This document shows, piece by piece, positions 57,131-63,921 of a stretch of DNA of 64,000 nt. A program made the translations under genes and the position numbers. Source of the stretch: a virus. Each line of letters opens with the position of its first letter. The first letter of the stretch is position 1. The DNA lies in IMG/VR virus record IMGVR_UViG_3300035670_000158, positions 1 through 64,000 of that record; one strand, given 5' to 3'. The notes below the pieces were generated by a model, which was not told where the DNA came from, searched no databases, and saw nothing but the letters and a program-made list of their open reading frames with translations.

Positions 57131-57478
57131 ATGCGCCCACAATCAGCAAAAGCAAAAGGTCGCCGCCTTCAGCAGTGGGTAAGAGATAAACTGGTAGAGT
57201 GTCTTCATATTCATCCAGAAGACATTGAGTCTCGTAGCATGGGAGCAGGCGGTGAAGACCTTATTATGGCTAGAGCAGCCAGGTCAAAGTTTCCCCATAG
57301 TATTGAATGTAAGAATGTTGAAAAACTAAATATCTGGGATGCCTATGAGCAAGCATCTGCCAACTGTGGTGATTACGAACCTATCGTTGTGATGAAAAAG
57401 AACGGAAAGAAACCATTGGTTGTAGTGGACGCAGAGTATTACATTCAACTATTCGGAGACAAAGATGGCACGAATTGA
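57131..57478 (+). CDS. PD-(D/E)XK nuclease, resolvase-like
   Basis: 115 residues. Catalytic set GAGGEDLIM (D43) and HSIECKN (E59, K61) with basic N-terminus (SAKAKGRRLQQWVRDKLVEC). Size and motif fit a Holliday-junction-resolvase-like or VRR-type endonuclease, which could replace T4 gp49 in resolving branched DNA before packaging. The late-only control suggested by the upstream hairpin resembles that described for T4 gene 49. Overlaps the next gene by 14 bases. Confidence 0.75.
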   Translation: MRPQSAKAKGRRLQQWVRDKLVECLHIHPEDIESRSMGAGGEDLIMARAARSKFPHSIECKNVEKLNIWDAYEQASANCGDYEPIVVMKKNGKKPLVVVDAEYYIQLFGDKDGTN

Positions 57479-58169
57479 TCTTCATAACTTTTTTAAACAT
57501 TACGACGAAAACAATCCAAAGCATGTAGAAGCTGTTAGATATTTTGAGGATGCTCTTAATAAAAAAGCACCAGAAGAAATGGAAGATTCTTCTGGGTGGG
57601 TTGTGACATATAGAAGTCAACCAAACAAACCAAAATCAAATATTCTTGATGTGCCTTTCTTTCCACAGACAGACAATTATAGAGATGCTAATCGCACCTG
57701 TAATTCATCTGCCTGTGCCATGGTGTTAGAATACTTCAAACCAGGCACACTCAAAGGAGCAAAAGGCGACGACGCTTATGTTCAAAAAGTCTTTTCAATC
57801 GGGGATACCACAGATCACTTGGTTCAAACTCGTGCTCTTGCGTCTTATGGAATTAAGTCAAGTTTCAGTTATTCCCTTACTTTTGCTGATCTTGATAGAG
57901 AGCTTGCCGCTGGCAGACCTGTTGTTATTGGCATTCTTCATAGGGGCACTCTATCTAATCCGACAGGAGGACATATGTTAGTTGTCATTGGCAAAACGCC
58001 ATCAGGTGATTACATTGTTAACGACCCCTATGGTAGTCTCAATGACGGTTACACCAGTGCCGTAAGCAACGGTAAGGGTGCAGTGTATAAGCGTAGTGTG
58101 TTGGCACGTAGATGGTGCCCAGCTGGCAATGATGGATGGGGTAGAATCTTTGATGCAAAAAAGGCGTAA
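57465..58169 (+). CDS. C39-like cysteine peptidase domain (0-frame of a frameshift pair)
   Basis: 234 residues in the 0 frame. Papain-like C39-type peptidase: ILDVPFFPQTDNYRDANRTC with catalytic C79 in TCNSSACAMVLEYF, H170 in PTGGHMLVVIG, D187 in YIVNDPYGS. Such domains cut peptides in cell-wall or bacteriocin contexts. It ends ...FDAKKA-stop with the slippery string A AAA AAG four codons before the stop codon's end. The -1 frame continues into a GH24 lysozyme with no start of its own. A 393-residue peptidase-lysozyme is therefore expected. N-terminal 60 residues unrecognised. Confidence 0.85.
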   Translation: MARIDLHNFFKHYDENNPKHVEAVRYFEDALNKKAPEEMEDSSGWVVTYRSQPNKPKSNILDVPFFPQTDNYRDANRTCNSSACAMVLEYFKPGTLKGAKGDDAYVQKVFSIGDTTDHLVQTRALASYGIKSSFSYSLTFADLDRELAAGRPVVIGILHRGTLSNPTGGHMLVVIGKTPSGDYIVNDPYGSLNDGYTSAVSNGKGAVYKRSVLARRWCPAGNDGWGRIFDAKKA

Positions 58170-58209
58170 GCTCCACTCTTGACGGTATTCCCGTAAAGGG
58201 ACTGGAGCT
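58157..58209 (+). promoter_or_regulatory. -1 programmed frameshift signal
   Basis: Slippery heptamer A AAA AAG at 58157-58163 in the correct phase (0-frame codons AAA, AAG). A 5-base spacer (58164-58168) contains part of the 0-frame stop, followed by stem AGCTCCA (58169-58175) with TGGAGCT (58203-58209) and an inner hairpin TCCC/GGGA. This is the standard layout of a -1 frameshift site. Confidence 0.75.
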
Positions 58210-58645
58210 GATCAAAGAGTTTGAAGGATGCCATCTTTCAGCATACCCAGACCCATTTACAGGAAATCTTCCCATCACCATAGGTTGGGGAAGCACCAGA
58301 GACTTCAACGGCAAACCATTCAAACTTGGTGATAAGATTTCACAAAAGGTTGCTGATGATTTGCTCATCAGTCAAATCAAGCGGGAGTTTATTCCTGCCC
58401 TGTCTAAGATACCTTACTGGAGTGAAATGAATGACAATCAACGAGGAGCACTTTTATCATTTGCTTACAATCTCGGTGCTCGCTTTTACAATTCAAGCAA
58501 TTTCAATACTATTTCTCGCAATTTGCGTGAGAAAAATTGGGCAGCAATCCCAAAAACATTAGAGATGTATCGCAATCCTGGTAGCAGTGTAGAGGCAGGA
58601 TTGCTCAGAAGAAGAAAGGCAGAGGGTAAACTTTGGATAAGTTAA
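58163..58645 (+). CDS. GH24 lysozyme domain, -1 frame continuation of the peptidase
   Basis: Murein-hydrolysing T4/lambda-R-type lysozyme. Frame -1 is open from 58154. It has no ATG/GTG/TTG before the catalytic region; the first ATG would start after it. LIKEFEGCHLSAYPDPFTGN gives the catalytic Glu and, eight residues between, the Asp; PITIGWGST holds the Thr. QRGALLSFAYNLG and GLLRRRKAEGKLW are the usual C-terminal lysozyme blocks. As it cannot start alone, frameshifting from 57465, or a one-base sequencing loss in the A6 run, is required. Confidence 0.85.
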   Translation, partial: GVSSTLDGIPVKGLELIKEFEGCHLSAYPDPFTGNLPITIGWGSTRDFNGKPFKLGDKISQKVADDLLISQIKREFIPALSKIPYWSEMNDNQRGALLSFAYNLGARFYNSSNFNTISRNLREKNWAAIPKTLEMYRNPGSSVEAGLLRRRKAEGKLWIS

Positions 58646-58887
58646 TCATCCATCTTTGCTTTTAGTCCAAGTAGAGCAGTAAACAAAGTAAATAACGCAT
58701 TATATCCTCTACTCTCAGACTCTTTGCAGTCTAAGGGTGGAGGATTTACTAATCCACCTAAAGCATCTGCTCTTTCCATGGAACCTGGAACCATAAAATT
58801 GCAGTTTGCAAAAGTAATACCAACGTATCCTAGTGTTCCTATTACAAGAGTGACAATGAGTTTATCAAGTAGCTTTAGATTTTTCAT
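58642..58887 (-). CDS. minus-strand membrane protein, holin candidate
   Basis: 81 residues, the only convincing minus-strand gene. N-terminal helix LLDKLIVTLVIGTLGYVGIT (~6-25), a loop with NCNFMVPGSMERADALGGLV and PPPLDC (two Cys), and a second weaker hydrophobic helix (YNALFTLFTALLGLKA, ~62-77). Its 3' end overlaps the lysozyme stop by four bases. A late core AAATAAATAG lies on the same strand just upstream. Two helices next to a lysozyme fit a holin or related lysis protein, by inference. Confidence 0.6.
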   Translation of the reverse strand: MKNLKLLDKLIVTLVIGTLGYVGITFANCNFMVPGSMERADALGGLVNPPPLDCKESESRGYNALFTLFTALLGLKAKMDD

Positions 58888-59063: not shown

Positions 59064-59426
59064 ATGCTTTTCAAATCACTTTCAATTCTCGCCATTGCCG
59101 CTGCAGGACTAGCACCCCTTCAGGCAAAGGCAGCGAGCGGATGTTCCCTCGCATCACATTATGGAGTCGGTGATGGATATCATGGGCAGACAACTGCAAA
59201 TGGTGAAAGATATAACGCTTATGGAAAATCAGTAGCACATAAATGGCTTCCTTTTGGAACCAGATTGAGAGTTACAAATCAACGAAATGGTAAGTCAGTA
59301 ATTGTGCGTGTAAATGATCGCGGTCCCTACGTTGGTGGGAGAGACCTTGACTTGTCTTATGGTGCGTTCTCTTCTATTGCTCACCCAGGTCAAGGCGTTA
59401 CTAGCGTCTGTTATTCAAGGGTCTAA
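59064..59426 (+). CDS. RlpA-like double-psi beta-barrel protein with signal peptide
   Basis: 120 residues. Signal peptide MLFKSLSILAIAAAGLAPLQ with AKAAS cleavage region, then the RlpA fold: SLASHYGVGDGYHGQTTANG (~28-47), SVAHKWLPFGTRLRVTN (~56-72), VNDRGPYVGGRDLDLS (~83-98). Bacterial RlpA proteins are periplasmic lytic transglycosylases acting on naked glycan strands; the His and Asp in this pattern (AHK, VNDRGP) are retained. Probably exported to the host periplasm to help remodel the wall. It lies in the lysis-like cluster. Confidence 0.85.
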   Translation: MLFKSLSILAIAAAGLAPLQAKAASGCSLASHYGVGDGYHGQTTANGERYNAYGKSVAHKWLPFGTRLRVTNQRNGKSVIVRVNDRGPYVGGRDLDLSYGAFSSIAHPGQGVTSVCYSRV

Positions 59427-59898: not shown

Positions 59899-59970
59899 GG
59901 GCTCATAGTTAAATGGATATAACCCGATCCTTCTAAGATTGTGTTCTTGGTTCGATTCCAAGTGAGCCTG
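59899..59970 (+). tRNA. tRNA-Arg (UCU)
   Basis: Acceptor GGGCTCA with TGAGCCT (one G-U), D stem GTTA/TAAC, anticodon stem CGATC/GATTG around CTTCTAA (anticodon TCT), T arm CTTGG-TTCGATT-CCAAG. Reads AGA, a codon frequent in these AT-rich phage genes. Confidence 0.9.
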
Positions 59971-59972
59971 TT

Positions 59973-60055
59973 GCTTCAGTGGTGGAACGGTAGACACAGC
60001 GGACTTAGAATCCGCCGCCCTAAAAAGCGTGGAAGTTCAAATCTTCTCTGGAGCA
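59973..60055 (+). tRNA. tRNA-Leu (UAG)
   Basis: Acceptor GCTTCAG with CTGGAGC, D arm GTGG...TAGACAC, anticodon stem GCGGA/TCCGC around CTTAGAA (anticodon TAG), long variable arm of class II, T arm GGAAG-TTCAAAT-CTTCT. Confidence 0.92.
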
Positions 60056-60056
60056 C

Positions 60057-60090
60057 TTGACAATCAAACCTAAATGGTTTATGATTGTCT
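60057..60090 (+). promoter_or_regulatory. inverted repeat carrying a possible promoter
   Basis: GACAATCA (60059-60066) and TGATTGTC (60082-60089) are exact inverted repeats. TTGACA (60057-60062), 17 bases, TATGAT (60080-60085) lie within the two arms. Could be a promoter with an operator, or a hairpin ending the tRNA-Leu RNA. Confidence 0.5.
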
Positions 60091-60098
60091 TATATCAA

Positions 60099-60133
60099 AA
60101 GGTATGATATAATAAATAAATATATTATACCTT
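60099..60133 (+). promoter_or_regulatory. hairpin with late promoter core as its loop, before HNH gene 1
   Basis: Thirteen-pair stem AAGGTATGATATA (60099-60111) / TATATTATACCTT (60121-60133, one G-U). The nine-base loop is ATAAATAAA, the late promoter core. The stem ends six bases before the HNH ATG. Confidence 0.75.
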
Positions 60134-60139
60134 AAGATT

Positions 60140-60493
60140 ATGCCATATAAAAACAAAGAGGACTATAAAAACTGGGAAAAGAGATATCGTAACGAATATT
60201 ATCAAAGACCAGAAACAAAACAAAGATTGTCAGAGCAATCTAAGTTGCGTAGAGAACGAAATAAAAGTTTTGTTCTAGATAAAATGATTCCTTGTATTGT
60301 ATGTGGTGAGAGTGACCCTATTGTTATTGATTTTCACCATTTAGATGAATCTCAAAAAGATAAAGGAATTTCTCAAATGATGCAAAGTAATTATTCTTTG
60401 CAAAAAATACAAGAAGAACTTGACAAATGTGTTTGTTTATGTTCTAATTGTCATAGGAGAGTTCACGCAGGAACTCTTACTTTGCGGGTATAG
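60140..60493 (+). CDS. HNH homing endonuclease 1
   Basis: 117 residues. HNH nuclease with zinc knuckles: CIVCGESDPIVIDFHHLDES (~53-72) and KCVCLCSNCHRRVHAGTL (~95-112), the HHxD ... N ... H order. Basic N-terminal part (NWEKRYRNEYYQRPETKQRL) for DNA contact. Paralogous to the gene at 61922. Its last ten bases are the first ten bases of tRNA-Gly, and its stop TAG is tRNA positions 8-10. A free-standing homing gene resident in the tRNA cluster. Confidence 0.88.
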   Translation: MPYKNKEDYKNWEKRYRNEYYQRPETKQRLSEQSKLRRERNKSFVLDKMIPCIVCGESDPIVIDFHHLDESQKDKGISQMMQSNYSLQKIQEELDKCVCLCSNCHRRVHAGTLTLRV

Positions 60494-60554
60494 TTTAGGG
60501 GTAAAATGCCATCCTTCCAAGTTGGAGTCACCGGTTCGATTCCGGTTACCCGCT
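60484..60554 (+). tRNA. tRNA-Gly (UCC)
   Basis: Acceptor GCGGGTA with TACCCGC, T8-A9, anticodon loop CTTCCAA (TCC), T arm ACCGG-TTCGATT-CCGGT. The anticodon stem CCATC/GTTGG has one T-T mismatch. The 5' end overlaps the 3' end of HNH gene 1. Confidence 0.88.
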
Positions 60555-60683
60555 CTGAACCTTTGGGTTCTTAAAATGTGGTTCTGGGTGGAATTCCCAG
60601 CGGTTCCGTTAGGGACTGTCCTTTGTAGGTTCGATACCTACATCTTCCTTATGGGAGATAAGAACGGCTATTGGAAACCACAA
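60555..60683 (+). other. non-coding stretch between tRNAs with one T-arm-like hairpin
   Basis: No convincing gene. A perfect T-arm-like hairpin GTAGG-TTCGATA-CCTAC lies at 60625-60641, and CTGGG ... CCCAG hairpin at about 60584-60600, but no matching acceptor or anticodon arm could be assembled. Probably a decayed tRNA or a stable small RNA. Confidence 0.4.
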
Positions 60684-60755
60684 CCTCTGGTAGTCTATTG
60701 GTAAGGACAGGCAGACAATGCACTTGGATACTAGGTTCGATTCCTAGACAGAGGA
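60684..60755 (+). pseudogene. tRNA-like sequence lacking an anticodon stem
   Basis: 72 bases with acceptor CCTCTGG/ACAGAGG (6 of 7 pairs), T8-A9, D stem GTCT/GGAC and perfect T arm CTAGG-TTCGATT-CCTAG. The middle (60709-60730) cannot form an anticodon arm with a T33. Either a decayed tRNA or a tRNA-like RNA. Confidence 0.5.
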
Positions 60756-60759
60756 CAAC

Positions 60760-60840
<81 letters not shown>

Positions 60841-60851
60841 CAAAAACTATA

Positions 60852-61289
60852 ATGGAAACTTTATATGAAGTGCTTCATAAAGCACAGACAACATTATTTT
60901 GCTTGATGCAAAAGACTTGGGTATATCACTGGAATGTTGTGGGTAGTGAGTTCTTTCAATTGCATGAAGCATTTGGAAATCAATATGAGACTATGATTGA
61001 AGAAATTGATAGACTCACTGAACATATGAGGTACTTGAGAATGAAAGCAGTCGCACCAATTTCCATGGTTGCTGATACATCAGAAATTCCTGAAGCTACT
61101 TCTGGAGCGTCTGATAGAACCATGGTTGCTCAACTGTATAAAGACAACCAAAAACTGATTGAGGTCTTTACAGAAGCAATTGAAGCAGCAGAAAATAATA
61201 AGCAACGCTCTACTTCCAATTTACTTCAAGATCTGGTAGAATCTCATGGTAAAAATGTTTGGATGCTCAGATCATTTTTGAAAGAATGA
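60852..61289 (+). CDS. Dps-like ferritin
   Basis: 145 residues, four-helix Dps/ferritin-like fold. The ferroxidase set H26, H38, D53, E57 in YHWNVVGSEFFQLHEAFGNQ ... EEIDRLTEHM has exactly the 12-15-4 spacing of E. coli Dps (H51, H63, D78, E82). The residue matching D67 is Gly. No basic N-terminal DNA-binding tail (E. coli: 167 residues). Expected to oxidise and store iron and quench peroxide; DNA protection is less sure. Late promoter directly upstream. The next gene overlaps its stop. Confidence 0.85.
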   Translation: METLYEVLHKAQTTLFCLMQKTWVYHWNVVGSEFFQLHEAFGNQYETMIEEIDRLTEHMRYLRMKAVAPISMVADTSEIPEATSGASDRTMVAQLYKDNQKLIEVFTEAIEAAENNKQRSTSNLLQDLVESHGKNVWMLRSFLKE

Positions 61290-61486
61290 AAGACAAAAAA
61301 TTTAAAAAACTTATACAGAAACCATTGAGGTTTCATCACCAAGATATACATGAAGAACTTGATGAAATTAAAGGGATGCTAAAAAATGTTATCAGTCAGA
61401 TGCAAAGTTTGCAACAAAGAGTTGTCGAGCACGAACAAAACACAGTGCTGCGGATGCCCGAACATGACAACCGTGAGGGAGGATAA
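61286..61486 (+). CDS. small coiled-coil protein
   Basis: 66 residues from ATG 61286, overlapping the Dps stop (ATGA). Basic N-terminus (MKDKKFKKLIQKPLRFHHQD), then an amphipathic helix (LDEIKGMLKNVISQMQSLQQ). Overlaps the next gene by 101 bases, so one of the two may be mis-called. Function unknown. Confidence 0.5.
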   Translation: MKDKKFKKLIQKPLRFHHQDIHEELDEIKGMLKNVISQMQSLQQRVVEHEQNTVLRMPEHDNREGG

Positions 61487-61634
61487 AATCTCTGCGGTTG
61501 ACTTAAGTAAAGTTCTATTGCTAAATTCCGAAAAGAAGGTAAATAATCATGGAATCCTGACAAATAAGGATTTAGAATTTCAAGAGAACAGACGGAAACG
61601 CAAAGTTCGTAAACTTTACTTTGAAGAAAGATGA
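61386..61634 (+). CDS. small Cys-rich conserved protein
   Basis: 82 residues, MLSVRCKVCNKELSSTNKTQ then CCGCPN: four-Cys zinc ribbon (CxxC ... CxC). The following TVREDKISAVDLSKV is a pattern I associate with small cyanophage proteins. C-terminal basic tail RRKRKVRKLYFEER. Long overlap with the previous frame. ATGA overlap with the next gene. Confidence 0.6.
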   Translation: MLSVRCKVCNKELSSTNKTQCCGCPNMTTVREDKISAVDLSKVLLLNSEKKVNNHGILTNKDLEFQENRRKRKVRKLYFEER

Positions 61635-61858
61635 TTAACCTTCACCAACGATTCAATCATTATCTCAATACAGATAAAACAATCAATGAACAAGACGTGA
61701 ATGAGAAATTGATTAGTTATGGTTGGTTAGATAATGGTGTAGACATCACGGGATACTATCTCTTGACAGAGAACTTTGAATTGGTGTATGATATGCAAGA
61801 GAACTTCAAGCATAAGGTCCCACGGAGATCCTATGCTTGCCTCAAAACAAAAGGATAA
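61631..61858 (+). CDS. hypothetical protein
   Basis: 75 residues, MINLHQRFNHYLNTDKTINE ... SYGWLDNGVDITGYYLLTEN. Soluble, mixed alpha/beta, no motif recognised. Stop lies one base before the tRNA-Ser 5' fragment. Confidence 0.55.
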   Translation: MINLHQRFNHYLNTDKTINEQDVNEKLISYGWLDNGVDITGYYLLTENFELVYDMQENFKHKVPRRSYACLKTKG

Positions 61859-61859
61859 T

Positions 61860-61883
61860 GGAAAGGTGGTCGAGTGGTTGAAG
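61860..61883 (+). pseudogene. 5' fragment of a tRNA-Ser
   Basis: GGAAAGGTGGTCGAGTGG followed by TTGAAG is a standard tRNA-Ser 5' end (acceptor, T8-G9, D arm). The sequence then breaks off into the hairpin before HNH gene 2. No matching CCTTTCC 3' end was found downstream. Confidence 0.7.
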
Positions 61884-61920
61884 TTCTAATTTTTCTAAAT
61901 AAATTAGAACCATAAATAAT
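61883..61920 (+). promoter_or_regulatory. hairpin with late promoter core in its loop, before HNH gene 2
   Basis: Ten-pair stem GTTCTAATTT (61883-61892) / AAATTAGAAC (61901-61910). The loop TTCTAAAT plus the 3' arm give the core CTAAATAAA, and a second core CATAAATAAT (61911-61920) precedes ATG 61922. Confidence 0.72.
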
Positions 61921-61921
61921 T

Positions 61922-62311
61922 ATGCCATACAAGGATATAAAAAAGCAAAGAGAAGCGCAGCGACTCTGGGCTGAAAAACAATCTAGTGAGTTTAAAAAGG
62001 TAAAATACCAACGAGAACAAAACCACAAAAAGTTGATGGTTGAAAAACTAAATCAACTAAAATTAGAAAAAGGTTGTTGCGAATTGTGTGGTGAGTATCA
62101 TCCACCATGTTGTTTTGATTTTCATCATTTGGACAAAACAACTAAATCAAAAGAAGTATCTCAGTTAGCTGCAAAAGGATACAAATGGGACACAATCTTG
62201 ACTGAAGTTGAGAAGTGTGTTATGCTATGTGCTCCATGTCATCGTAAGATACATGCGGGACTGCTAACAATCTTGGAGAGTCAATCCGATTGGCGACGGA
62301 ACCTGTCTTGA
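61922..62311 (+). CDS. HNH homing endonuclease 2, ending inside tRNA-Ser
   Basis: 129 residues. HNH core CCELCGEYHPPCCFDFHHLD (~52-71) and KCVMLCAPCHRKIHAGLL (~99-116), aligned with HNH gene 1. Basic N-terminus (MPYKDIKKQREAQRLWAEKQ) also shared (MPYK). The last 37 bases (after HAGLLTI) are the 5' half of tRNA-Ser, and the stop codon TGA is the tRNA anticodon. The gene therefore cannot be separated from the tRNA without damaging one of them. Confidence 0.88.
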   Translation: MPYKDIKKQREAQRLWAEKQSSEFKKVKYQREQNHKKLMVEKLNQLKLEKGCCELCGEYHPPCCFDFHHLDKTTKSKEVSQLAAKGYKWDTILTEVEKCVMLCAPCHRKIHAGLLTILESQSDWRRNLS

Positions 62312-62361
62312 AAACAGTTGAGGTGTTAAAGCCCTTGGGCGTTCGACTCGCCCACTCTCCG
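62275..62361 (+). tRNA. tRNA-Ser (UGA)
   Basis: Acceptor GGAGAGT with ACTCTCC (7 pairs), D stem TCCG/CGGA, anticodon loop CTTGAAA (TGA), class II variable arm, T arm GGGCG-TTCGACT-CGCCC. Oddities: three bases instead of the usual U8-A/G9 before the D stem, and a C-T mismatch at the top of the anticodon stem. The 5' half is also HNH 2 coding sequence. Confidence 0.85.
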
Positions 62362-62362
62362 T

Positions 62363-62381
62363 TGCTTTTTTATAAAAAGCA
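62363..62381 (+). promoter_or_regulatory. spacer hairpin between tRNA-Ser and tRNA-Pro
   Basis: TGCTTTTT (62363-62370) / AAAAAGCA (62374-62381), loop TAT. Probably a processing signal or weak terminator. Confidence 0.5.
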
Positions 62382-62389
62382 TATTTCTT

Positions 62390-62463
62390 CGGGCATTAGC
62401 GCAGTTTGGTAGCGCGTTCCGTTTGGGGCGGAAAGGTCATAGGTTCAAATCCTATATGCCCGA
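62390..62463 (+). tRNA. tRNA-Pro (UGG)
   Basis: Acceptor CGGGCAT with ATGCCCG, D arm GCGC...GCGC, anticodon stem TTCCG/CGGAA around TTTGGGG (TGG), T arm ATAGG-TTCAAAT-CCTAT. Confidence 0.93.
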
Positions 62464-62490
62464 TATATAAAACAAGTAACTAAAACTCAA

Positions 62491-62673
62491 ATGTCGTTAC
62501 CAAAAAATCAAATCACAATTGATGAATTCAGATCTAATCATGAACATTACCTAGAAAGAATGCAAGCTGGAGAAACGTTTTCTTTCACAGATTTTGACCA
62601 AAATAAACATAACTTACATGAACCAGTAAACAATAAAGGAATACCGATCGATATTGAAGAGATCAAATTCTAG
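62491..62673 (+). CDS. small hypothetical protein between tRNAs
   Basis: 60 residues, MSLPKNQITIDEFRSNHEHY ... PIDIEEIKF. Short acidic protein, no motif. It lies alone between tRNA-Pro and tRNA-Met with no clear ribosome site, so it is only moderately supported. Confidence 0.45.
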   Translation: MSLPKNQITIDEFRSNHEHYLERMQAGETFSFTDFDQNKHNLHEPVNNKGIPIDIEEIKF

Positions 62674-62683
62674 TCTAGTGTTT

Positions 62684-62756
62684 GCTGGTTTAGCTATCTG
62701 GTGAAAGCGCCCGACTCATAATCGGATACAGGTGAGTTCGATCCTCACAACCAGCA
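62684..62756 (+). tRNA. tRNA-Met (CAU)
   Basis: Acceptor GCTGGTT with AACCAGC, T8-A9, anticodon loop CTCATAA (CAT), T arm GTGAG-TTCGATC-CTCAC. The anticodon stem CCCGA/TCGGA has one C-A mismatch at its top. Elongator Met, or Ile if C34 is modified; not an initiator by its stem. Confidence 0.88.
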
Positions 62757-62791
62757 TTGGAGTTGACAGCAACTCCAAATTGTCCTAAAAT
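62757..62791 (+). promoter_or_regulatory. hairpin and promoter after tRNA-Met
   Basis: TTGGAGTTG (62757-62765) / CAACTCCAA (62770-62778), loop ACAG. TTGACA (62763-62768) lies in the stem/loop, with a 17-base spacer to TAAAAT (62786-62791). Drives the gene at 62814. Confidence 0.65.
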
Positions 62792-63581: not shown

Positions 63582-63809
63582 ATGGCAAAGTCTAATGTAT
63601 TTCGATACATTGGTAACTTTCTTCTCCTAGCAGGATACTTTTTTCTGCTCTGGGGAGATATGAAGATTGGATTATTTGTAAAATGTATAGGAAACATATT
63701 TGTTGTTCCTTTTGCAATCAAATATAAGTTTTGGGACATTCTTTTTTTATGTGGGTTTTATGCCGCGATAGAAGTTCCAAAACTAATTCAATTACTGATT
63801 GTTAAATAG
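63582..63809 (+). CDS. small polytopic membrane protein
   Basis: 75 residues from ATG 63582 (MAKSNVFRYIGNFLLLAGYF); the longer GTG frame at 63516 runs through hairpin R2. Two or three membrane helices (~9-27, ~31-49, ~53-72). Function unknown. Its stop TAG opens the flank of hairpin R3. Confidence 0.65.
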   Translation: MAKSNVFRYIGNFLLLAGYFFLLWGDMKIGLFVKCIGNIFVVPFAIKYKFWDILFLCGFYAAIEVPKLIQLLIVK

Positions 63810-63840
63810 TTTCCAATTTTTCTCAAAAATTGGTGGTGCG
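63807..63840 (+). repeat. hairpin element R3
   Basis: Flank TAGTTT, stem CCAATTTTT (63813-63821) / AAAAATTGG (63825-63833), loop CTC, then TGGTGCG. Confidence 0.6.
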
Positions 63841-63862
63841 GATGGGGAATTCTTTCTCCGCC

Positions 63863-63898
63863 TAGTTTCTTGGTTCTAGTCAAAAACCAAGTGGCGAG
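63863..63898 (+). repeat. hairpin element R4
   Basis: Flank TAGTTT, stem CTTGGTT (63869-63875) / AACCAAG (63885-63891), then TGGCGAG. 24 bases before the glycosyltransferase-like start. Confidence 0.6.
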
Positions 63899-63921
63899 CA
63901 TATTAGTTTCTTGAGTATAAG

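Follow-up and report, generated by a model that had tools for sequence, protein, structure and literature searches.

The 64,000-nucleotide stretch of cyanophage DNA analysed here (the window) raises the question of how a complete lysozyme that lacks a start codon of its own is translated. On the plus strand, a 0-frame ORF at 57465-58169 encoded a 234-aa product with an N-terminal helical domain (residues 1-50) and a C39-like cysteine peptidase domain (residues about 58-232), and its 3' end read GCA AAA AAG GCG TAA. The slippery heptamer A AAA AAG (58157-58163, plus strand) was phased for -1 tandem slippage, one codon before the TAA (58167-58169, plus strand) that ends the short product, and a 5-nt spacer (58164-58168, plus strand) led from the heptamer to a putative stimulatory stem-loop. 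The -1 frame was open from 58154 to a TAA at 58643-58645, and the extension that slippage would add (58163-58645, plus strand; 160 aa) comprised the linker GVSSTLDGIPVKG followed by a GH24 lysozyme. No ATG, GTG or TTG occurred in this lysozyme frame upstream of 58361, which itself lies within the catalytic domain. The trans-frame protein would comprise residues 1-233 of the peptidase plus 160 residues, 393 in all. An original prediction, made from the window alone, had proposed a programmed -1 frameshift here, and the window sequence bore out its particulars: A AAA AAG in the -1 phase near the end of the peptidase ORF, a 5-nt spacer and an AGCTCCA/TGGAGCT stem around a second hairpin, a start-less lysozyme with a complete catalytic domain, and a peptidase-lysozyme of 393 residues.

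Pfam matches over full profiles confirmed the two domains that had been named, with the peptidase matching Peptidase_C39_2 (PF13529; 1-143/143, E 7e-13) and the lysozyme matching Phage_lysozyme (PF00959; profile 1-125 of 125, E 4.8e-23); the latter had relatives among PDB lysozymes and met the criterion of a full-length domain. Residues Q68, C79, H170 and D187 of the peptidase, which from knowledge of the C39 family we take to be the Gln/Cys/His/Asp active site, were invariant in 73 aligned homologues. PDB fold comparisons, which covered residues 58-234, gave no fold match for the N-terminal 50 residues, and structure prediction left out rows from named phage records. The model of the window protein matched C39 peptidases with a C39/papain-like fold (6mpz, Z 13.8; 3erv, Z 13.4) and also the pseudomurein endoisopeptidase PeiR (Z 13.0). 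The invariant residues and the fold match suggest that the short product is probably active as a peptidoglycan peptidase and not a binding part only, an activity that remains inferred. A model of a natural fusion showed a low-confidence linker at the junction (residues 237-243) between two confident domains; the pTM of the lysozyme-bearing fusion model was low (0.50), and relative domain placement was therefore not used.

We gathered several hundred loci by scans of viral contigs. A first set held 65 unique junctions with the lysozyme in the -1 phase: an in-phase slippery heptamer was present in 49 of 49 junctions without a start codon at the stop, and an ATGA-type overlap in all 10 junctions without a heptamer. 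The full set comprised 125 unique related junctions with the peptidase/-1 lysozyme arrangement, of which 97 had a canonical in-phase X XXY YYZ heptamer and no start, nine had both, 19 had only a start (ATGA or GTGA) overlapping the stop, and none had neither (Fisher p 5e-16). This p value is overstated because the loci are related; the partition is nonetheless complete. Four heptamers occurred among the 97 start-less junctions (A AAA AAG, 66; G GGA AAG, 22; C CCA AAG, 7; U UUU UUU, 2, the last in the S-CAM7 isolates), all sharing one phase, with 0-6 nt between the heptamer and the 0-frame stop, which abutted the heptamer in most homologues. Junctions with G GGA AAG differed in their 0-frame product, which was not the peptidase but the shared N-terminal domain closing with a small CPHCGKxLGK motif; slippage would join this product to the lysozyme through a Ser/Gly/Ala-rich linker.

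Among the 52 A AAA AAG junctions in the first set (46 without and six with an overlapping start), the codon 5' of the site always ended in A (GTA 26, GCA 24, GAA 1, ACA 1), and Lys-Lys at the site was always AAA AAG. Across the same genes, the shares within the respective codon sets were only 28% for GTA, 40% for GCA and 30% for AAG. The site thus met two criteria for a -1 site: an X XXY YYZ heptamer in the 0-frame phase, and conservation at wobble positions beyond the needs of the protein. A third, that a conserved -1 ORF downstream is under coding selection yet has no start of its own, was also satisfied, as differences in the -1 lysozyme frame fell at third positions far more often than at second positions (43606 vs 9412), a codon-position bias which indicates coding selection on that frame. 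The same data bear on the idea that the lysozyme is merely a decaying remnant of a former fusion. In-frame fusions do occur among relatives, but the -1 frame lysozymes kept their full length, their invariant residues and a strong third-position bias, and the site was retained across deep divergence; we regard decay as practically ruled out.

The main alternative in the original prediction was loss of one A in sequencing or assembly, such that a true A7 run would give one in-frame peptidase-lysozyme gene. Such in-frame A7 fusions were found in the L332 group (four contigs) and in L336. However, many assemblies, with 66 unique junctions among them, carried the A6G run next to a 0-frame stop, as did the isolate Synechococcus phage S-PM2, which was sequenced independently; three unrelated heptamers, among them ones without so long a homopolymer, served other lineages, and conserved stems were present even in the L332 group and L336, a small minority whose contigs may be errors or recent mutants themselves. 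A lost A is therefore refuted for the family; raw reads are lacking for the window contig, and for this contig too an error is very improbable. Transcriptional slippage on the A run, by which a fraction of mRNA would carry seven As, draws on the A6 run that the window site shares with the largest class. Six-base runs are short for polymerase slippage, the longest run in G GGA AAG and C CCA AAG is three, and where an RNA stem-loop sits, and in which phase, would be irrelevant to it, leaving it, like a sequencing error, scarcely credible. Runs of only three G or C mean that neither homopolymer sequencing error nor polymerase slippage can explain those sites.

Another possibility is termination-reinitiation, in which ribosomes restart at a non-standard codon just past the TAA or TAG and make separate peptidase and lysozyme. 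The 19 relatives with an overlapping ATGA or GTGA start, and the nine with both heptamer and start, make such coupling conceivable at this junction, where ATGA overlaps would yield separate proteins. In contrast, the -1 frame was free of ATG in 63 of 66 A AAA AAG junctions, even GTG and TTG were absent from it in 49 of the 97 start-less junctions, and reinitiation requires neither an in-phase heptamer nor a hairpin, both of which were missing from start-only junctions. We consider it unlikely, with only a slight chance of being the general explanation. A few homologues did have an ATG or GTG upstream of the lysozyme, foremost the G GGA AAG class with its ATG ATG immediately ahead of the domain, and some free lysozyme could also arise there.

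A programmed -1 frameshift would also be expected to show the fourth criterion, RNA structure 3' of the heptamer at a short spacer, and this was met in the window and in homologues. In the window the stem-loop (58169-58209, plus strand), which is supported by z scores, covariation in homologues and an arm swap test, pairs 58169-58180 with 58196-58200 and 58203-58209 (plus strand), its outer ends being AGCTCCA (58169-58175) and TGGAGCT (58203-58209), and encloses an inner hairpin of 58182-58185 with 58191-58194 (all on the plus strand). The fold of 58157-58212 had an MFE of -20.6 kcal/mol (z = -3.15), with one of 200 shuffles as good; against synonymous codon shuffles of the -1 frame the stem reached z = -4.25, and the 18 other 60-nt stretches compared from the lysozyme gene all folded less well. 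Across homologues, the first paired base lay mostly 2-8 nt past the heptamer. Stems at heptamer junctions of the first set had a mean MFE of -16.9 and a mean synonymous z of -2.6 (z below -1 in 44 of 46), whereas at the 10 start-only junctions, where stems were weak or absent, these means were -7.7 and -0.8. Diverged representatives behaved alike, with -18.8 kcal/mol in 59 with the site and -10.0 in 26 with a start codon instead (p 4e-8).

Stem arms from the same junction paired better than arms exchanged between junctions (p 2e-9). In one stem family, both sides had changed in six of 14 pairs, a level reached in none of 500 shuffles. A second family had seven doubly changed cells (reached by 3/500 shuffles), and was weaker on two further measures, namely double-change pairs (114/500) and further pair types (497/500). 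Comparison of A-run length and of the stem across homologous loci had been named beforehand as a check on the original prediction, and both results favoured it, with A6G in 66 unique start-less junctions and a stem kept with compensatory changes. Where a start codon was present, the stem had been lost though the heptamer remained in L010/S-SRM01, L050 and L126, and had been kept in L021 and L440; it appears that stem loss tends to follow where a start codon may replace the need for slippage. Change counts from the tree of loci are usable only loosely, since its automatic 'overlap' labels include false positives among fused genes. We also looked for an upstream Shine-Dalgarno-like stimulator and found no sign of selection for one; the candidate TGG GGN AGA, nine codons upstream, was used equally in the frameshift and ATGA classes and therefore reflects the protein rather than a signal. 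The heptamer, its phase, the spacer, the stem, the open -1 frame, the absence of a start codon and the conservation of all these are directly observed, if only in nucleotide sequences, and given the homologues the arrangement of the putative site in the window is beyond chance.

Relatives reach a peptidase and a lysozyme by other routes too. In the natural A7 fusion of L332, the junction peptide was the same as DVKK then VENSTPSGSKYDVPAKGV, the trans-frame peptide predicted for L202, a relative with the frameshift arrangement. ACG-2014f and L105/L114 encode the fusion in the 0 frame, yet their A AAA AAG directly precedes YCT GA (A AAA AAG then TCT GA at L008:2523-2532 and L105:2503-2512) and a hairpin lies 5-6 nt downstream, such that -1 slippage would add V or A before ending at a TGA. 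This inverted type is the arrangement of dnaX, in which slippage truncates, and it would give the same short product. As the evidence for it comes from two lineages, and the phages closest to ACG-2014f carry plain fusions without a heptamer, a second frameshift at the inverted site is probable but not proven. In S-CREM1 and its relatives a single ORF had the reversed order lysozyme-peptidase, and an ATG at the peptidase was preceded, at a distance of 7-8 nt, by GGAGG(A), so that free peptidase could be made there as well. Frameshifting is thus not universal in the family, some members using an ATGA overlap or a plain fusion, and is therefore not indispensable to it. One tentative reading, to which we give somewhat less than even weight, is that these phages require peptidase and peptidase-lysozyme in a set ratio, that a mixed oligomer of the two is the active endolysin, and that evolution keeps the pair and swaps the device, the devices being -1 frameshifting at four heptamers, the inverted dnaX-like frameshift, and reversed order with an internal ribosome-binding site.

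Most of what is known of programmed -1 frameshifting in phages concerns tail chaperones, together with a few capsid or transposase genes. The in-phase X XXY YYZ heptamer, short spacer and 3' stem-loop found here are shared with Escherichia coli dnaX (also A AAA AAG), the IS3-family and tail assembly chaperones, and in the last of these frameshifting likewise gives a C-terminal extension. Unlike canonical -1 cassettes, the cyanophage junctions encode an enzyme that lyses the cell wall, mostly have the 0-frame stop directly against the heptamer, and show no sign of a selected upstream Shine-Dalgarno-like stimulator. In the nearest functional parallel, two endolysin isoforms are made from internal translational starts, as in CTP1L, CD27L, Ply2638A and Lys170 (PMC4777826, PMC4110038, PMC12203907), and in phi2638A both are required for timely lysis (PMC12203907). 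As predicted here, one gene gives a full-length and a short isoform with one domain in common; in those systems, however, the common part is C-terminal and arises from the internal start, whereas in the cyanophages it is N-terminal and would arise from frameshifting, and the cyanophages infect Gram-negative cyanobacteria. The same two domains occur in cyanophage proteins of PHROG 3617 (C39 then lysozyme) and PHROG 10051 (lysozyme then C39), but these profiles span in-frame fusions, the frameshift form being split by gene callers. The statement in the original prediction that no frameshifted endolysin of this type is known to have been described held in the open-licence literature searched, save for one source: the PRFect paper (PMC10885494) includes lysins in its list of genes with known frameshifts, on the strength of a lactococcal phage study from 1994 in which overlapping genes and frameshifting were reportedly involved in a phage lysin. 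The mechanism of -1 frameshifting is already known; its use in an endolysin appears new.

The closest isolate was Synechococcus phage S-PM2 (74.9% DNA identity), in which GCA AAA AAG TAA is followed by the stem and the lysozyme lies in the -1 frame. The C39-lysozyme arrangement with its putative frameshift site is widespread in cyanophages, S-PM2 included, and the annotations examined for related phages showed no frameshift control of the lysozyme. Such lysozymes are split or cut short by gene callers: the 'putative lysin' of S-PM2 is annotated from a start within the domain, and the S-CAM7 lysin likewise from an internal start, so the endolysins of these phages are misannotated. A 'lysin' cloned according to such annotation would miss part of its catalytic domain.

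Several other features were noted around the locus and in its relatives. Directly after the lysozyme, a short convergent ORF (58642-58887, minus strand) without a family match had hydrophobic stretches and is a candidate small membrane protein; S-SRM01 had a minus-strand ORF at the corresponding place. Just downstream of the lysozyme, 59064-59426 (plus strand) encoded a small secreted DPBB/RlpA-like protein (PF03330, E 6.8e-22), and an RlpA gene was also found near the C39 gene of S-SZBM1, positions which fit a cell-wall module, so that this protein is possibly part of the lysis module. Seven tRNA genes spanned 59899-62757 (plus strand), with two small HNH-like ORFs in between (60140-60493 and 61922-62311, plus strand) that had C-x2-C...HH motifs and are possibly homing endonucleases, and a Ferritin/Dps-like protein (60852-61289, plus strand; PF00210, E 3e-20) lay in the same region. 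A wcaG RNA motif (63805-63905, plus strand; RF01761, 94 bits) was found near the window end. In L006 and L007 (DSL-LC02 and DSL-LC03), the N-terminal DLHNFFK domain occurred both on the C39 gene and on a separate lysozyme gene, suggesting that the two share a domain for targeting or assembly, with its function unknown.

Taken together, we are highly confident that a programmed -1 ribosomal frameshift controls the C39-lysozyme gene and yields two endolysin isoforms, though no protein, reporter or ribosome-profiling data are available. In the proposed mechanism, ribosomes translating the peptidase ORF would come to A AAA AAG, hold tRNA-Lys in both the P site and the A site, and be paused there by the stem-loop. 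Those that do not slip would continue to the TAA and release the 234-aa peptidase; in those that do, the tRNAs would re-pair one base back on AAA AAA and reading would proceed from 58163 into the lysozyme, producing the 393-aa peptidase-lysozyme at a fixed fraction of the peptidase. Without a start codon of its own, the lysozyme would thus be made only as the C-terminal part of the fusion. The homologous heptamers and stems support the frameshift originally predicted; slippage itself and its rate are inferred, as are the joint action of the two isoforms as an endolysin, which is modelled on the internal-start isoforms of other endolysins, and the need for both. If the tentative set-ratio reading is true, the active endolysin would be a mixed oligomer with few lysozyme-bearing subunits. 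The switching among frameshift, start-stop overlap, in-frame fusion and inverted frameshift between closely related phages offers a natural series on the need for two isoforms, and in this widespread group of picocyanobacterial viruses frameshifting appears to determine how much of a lytic enzyme is made.
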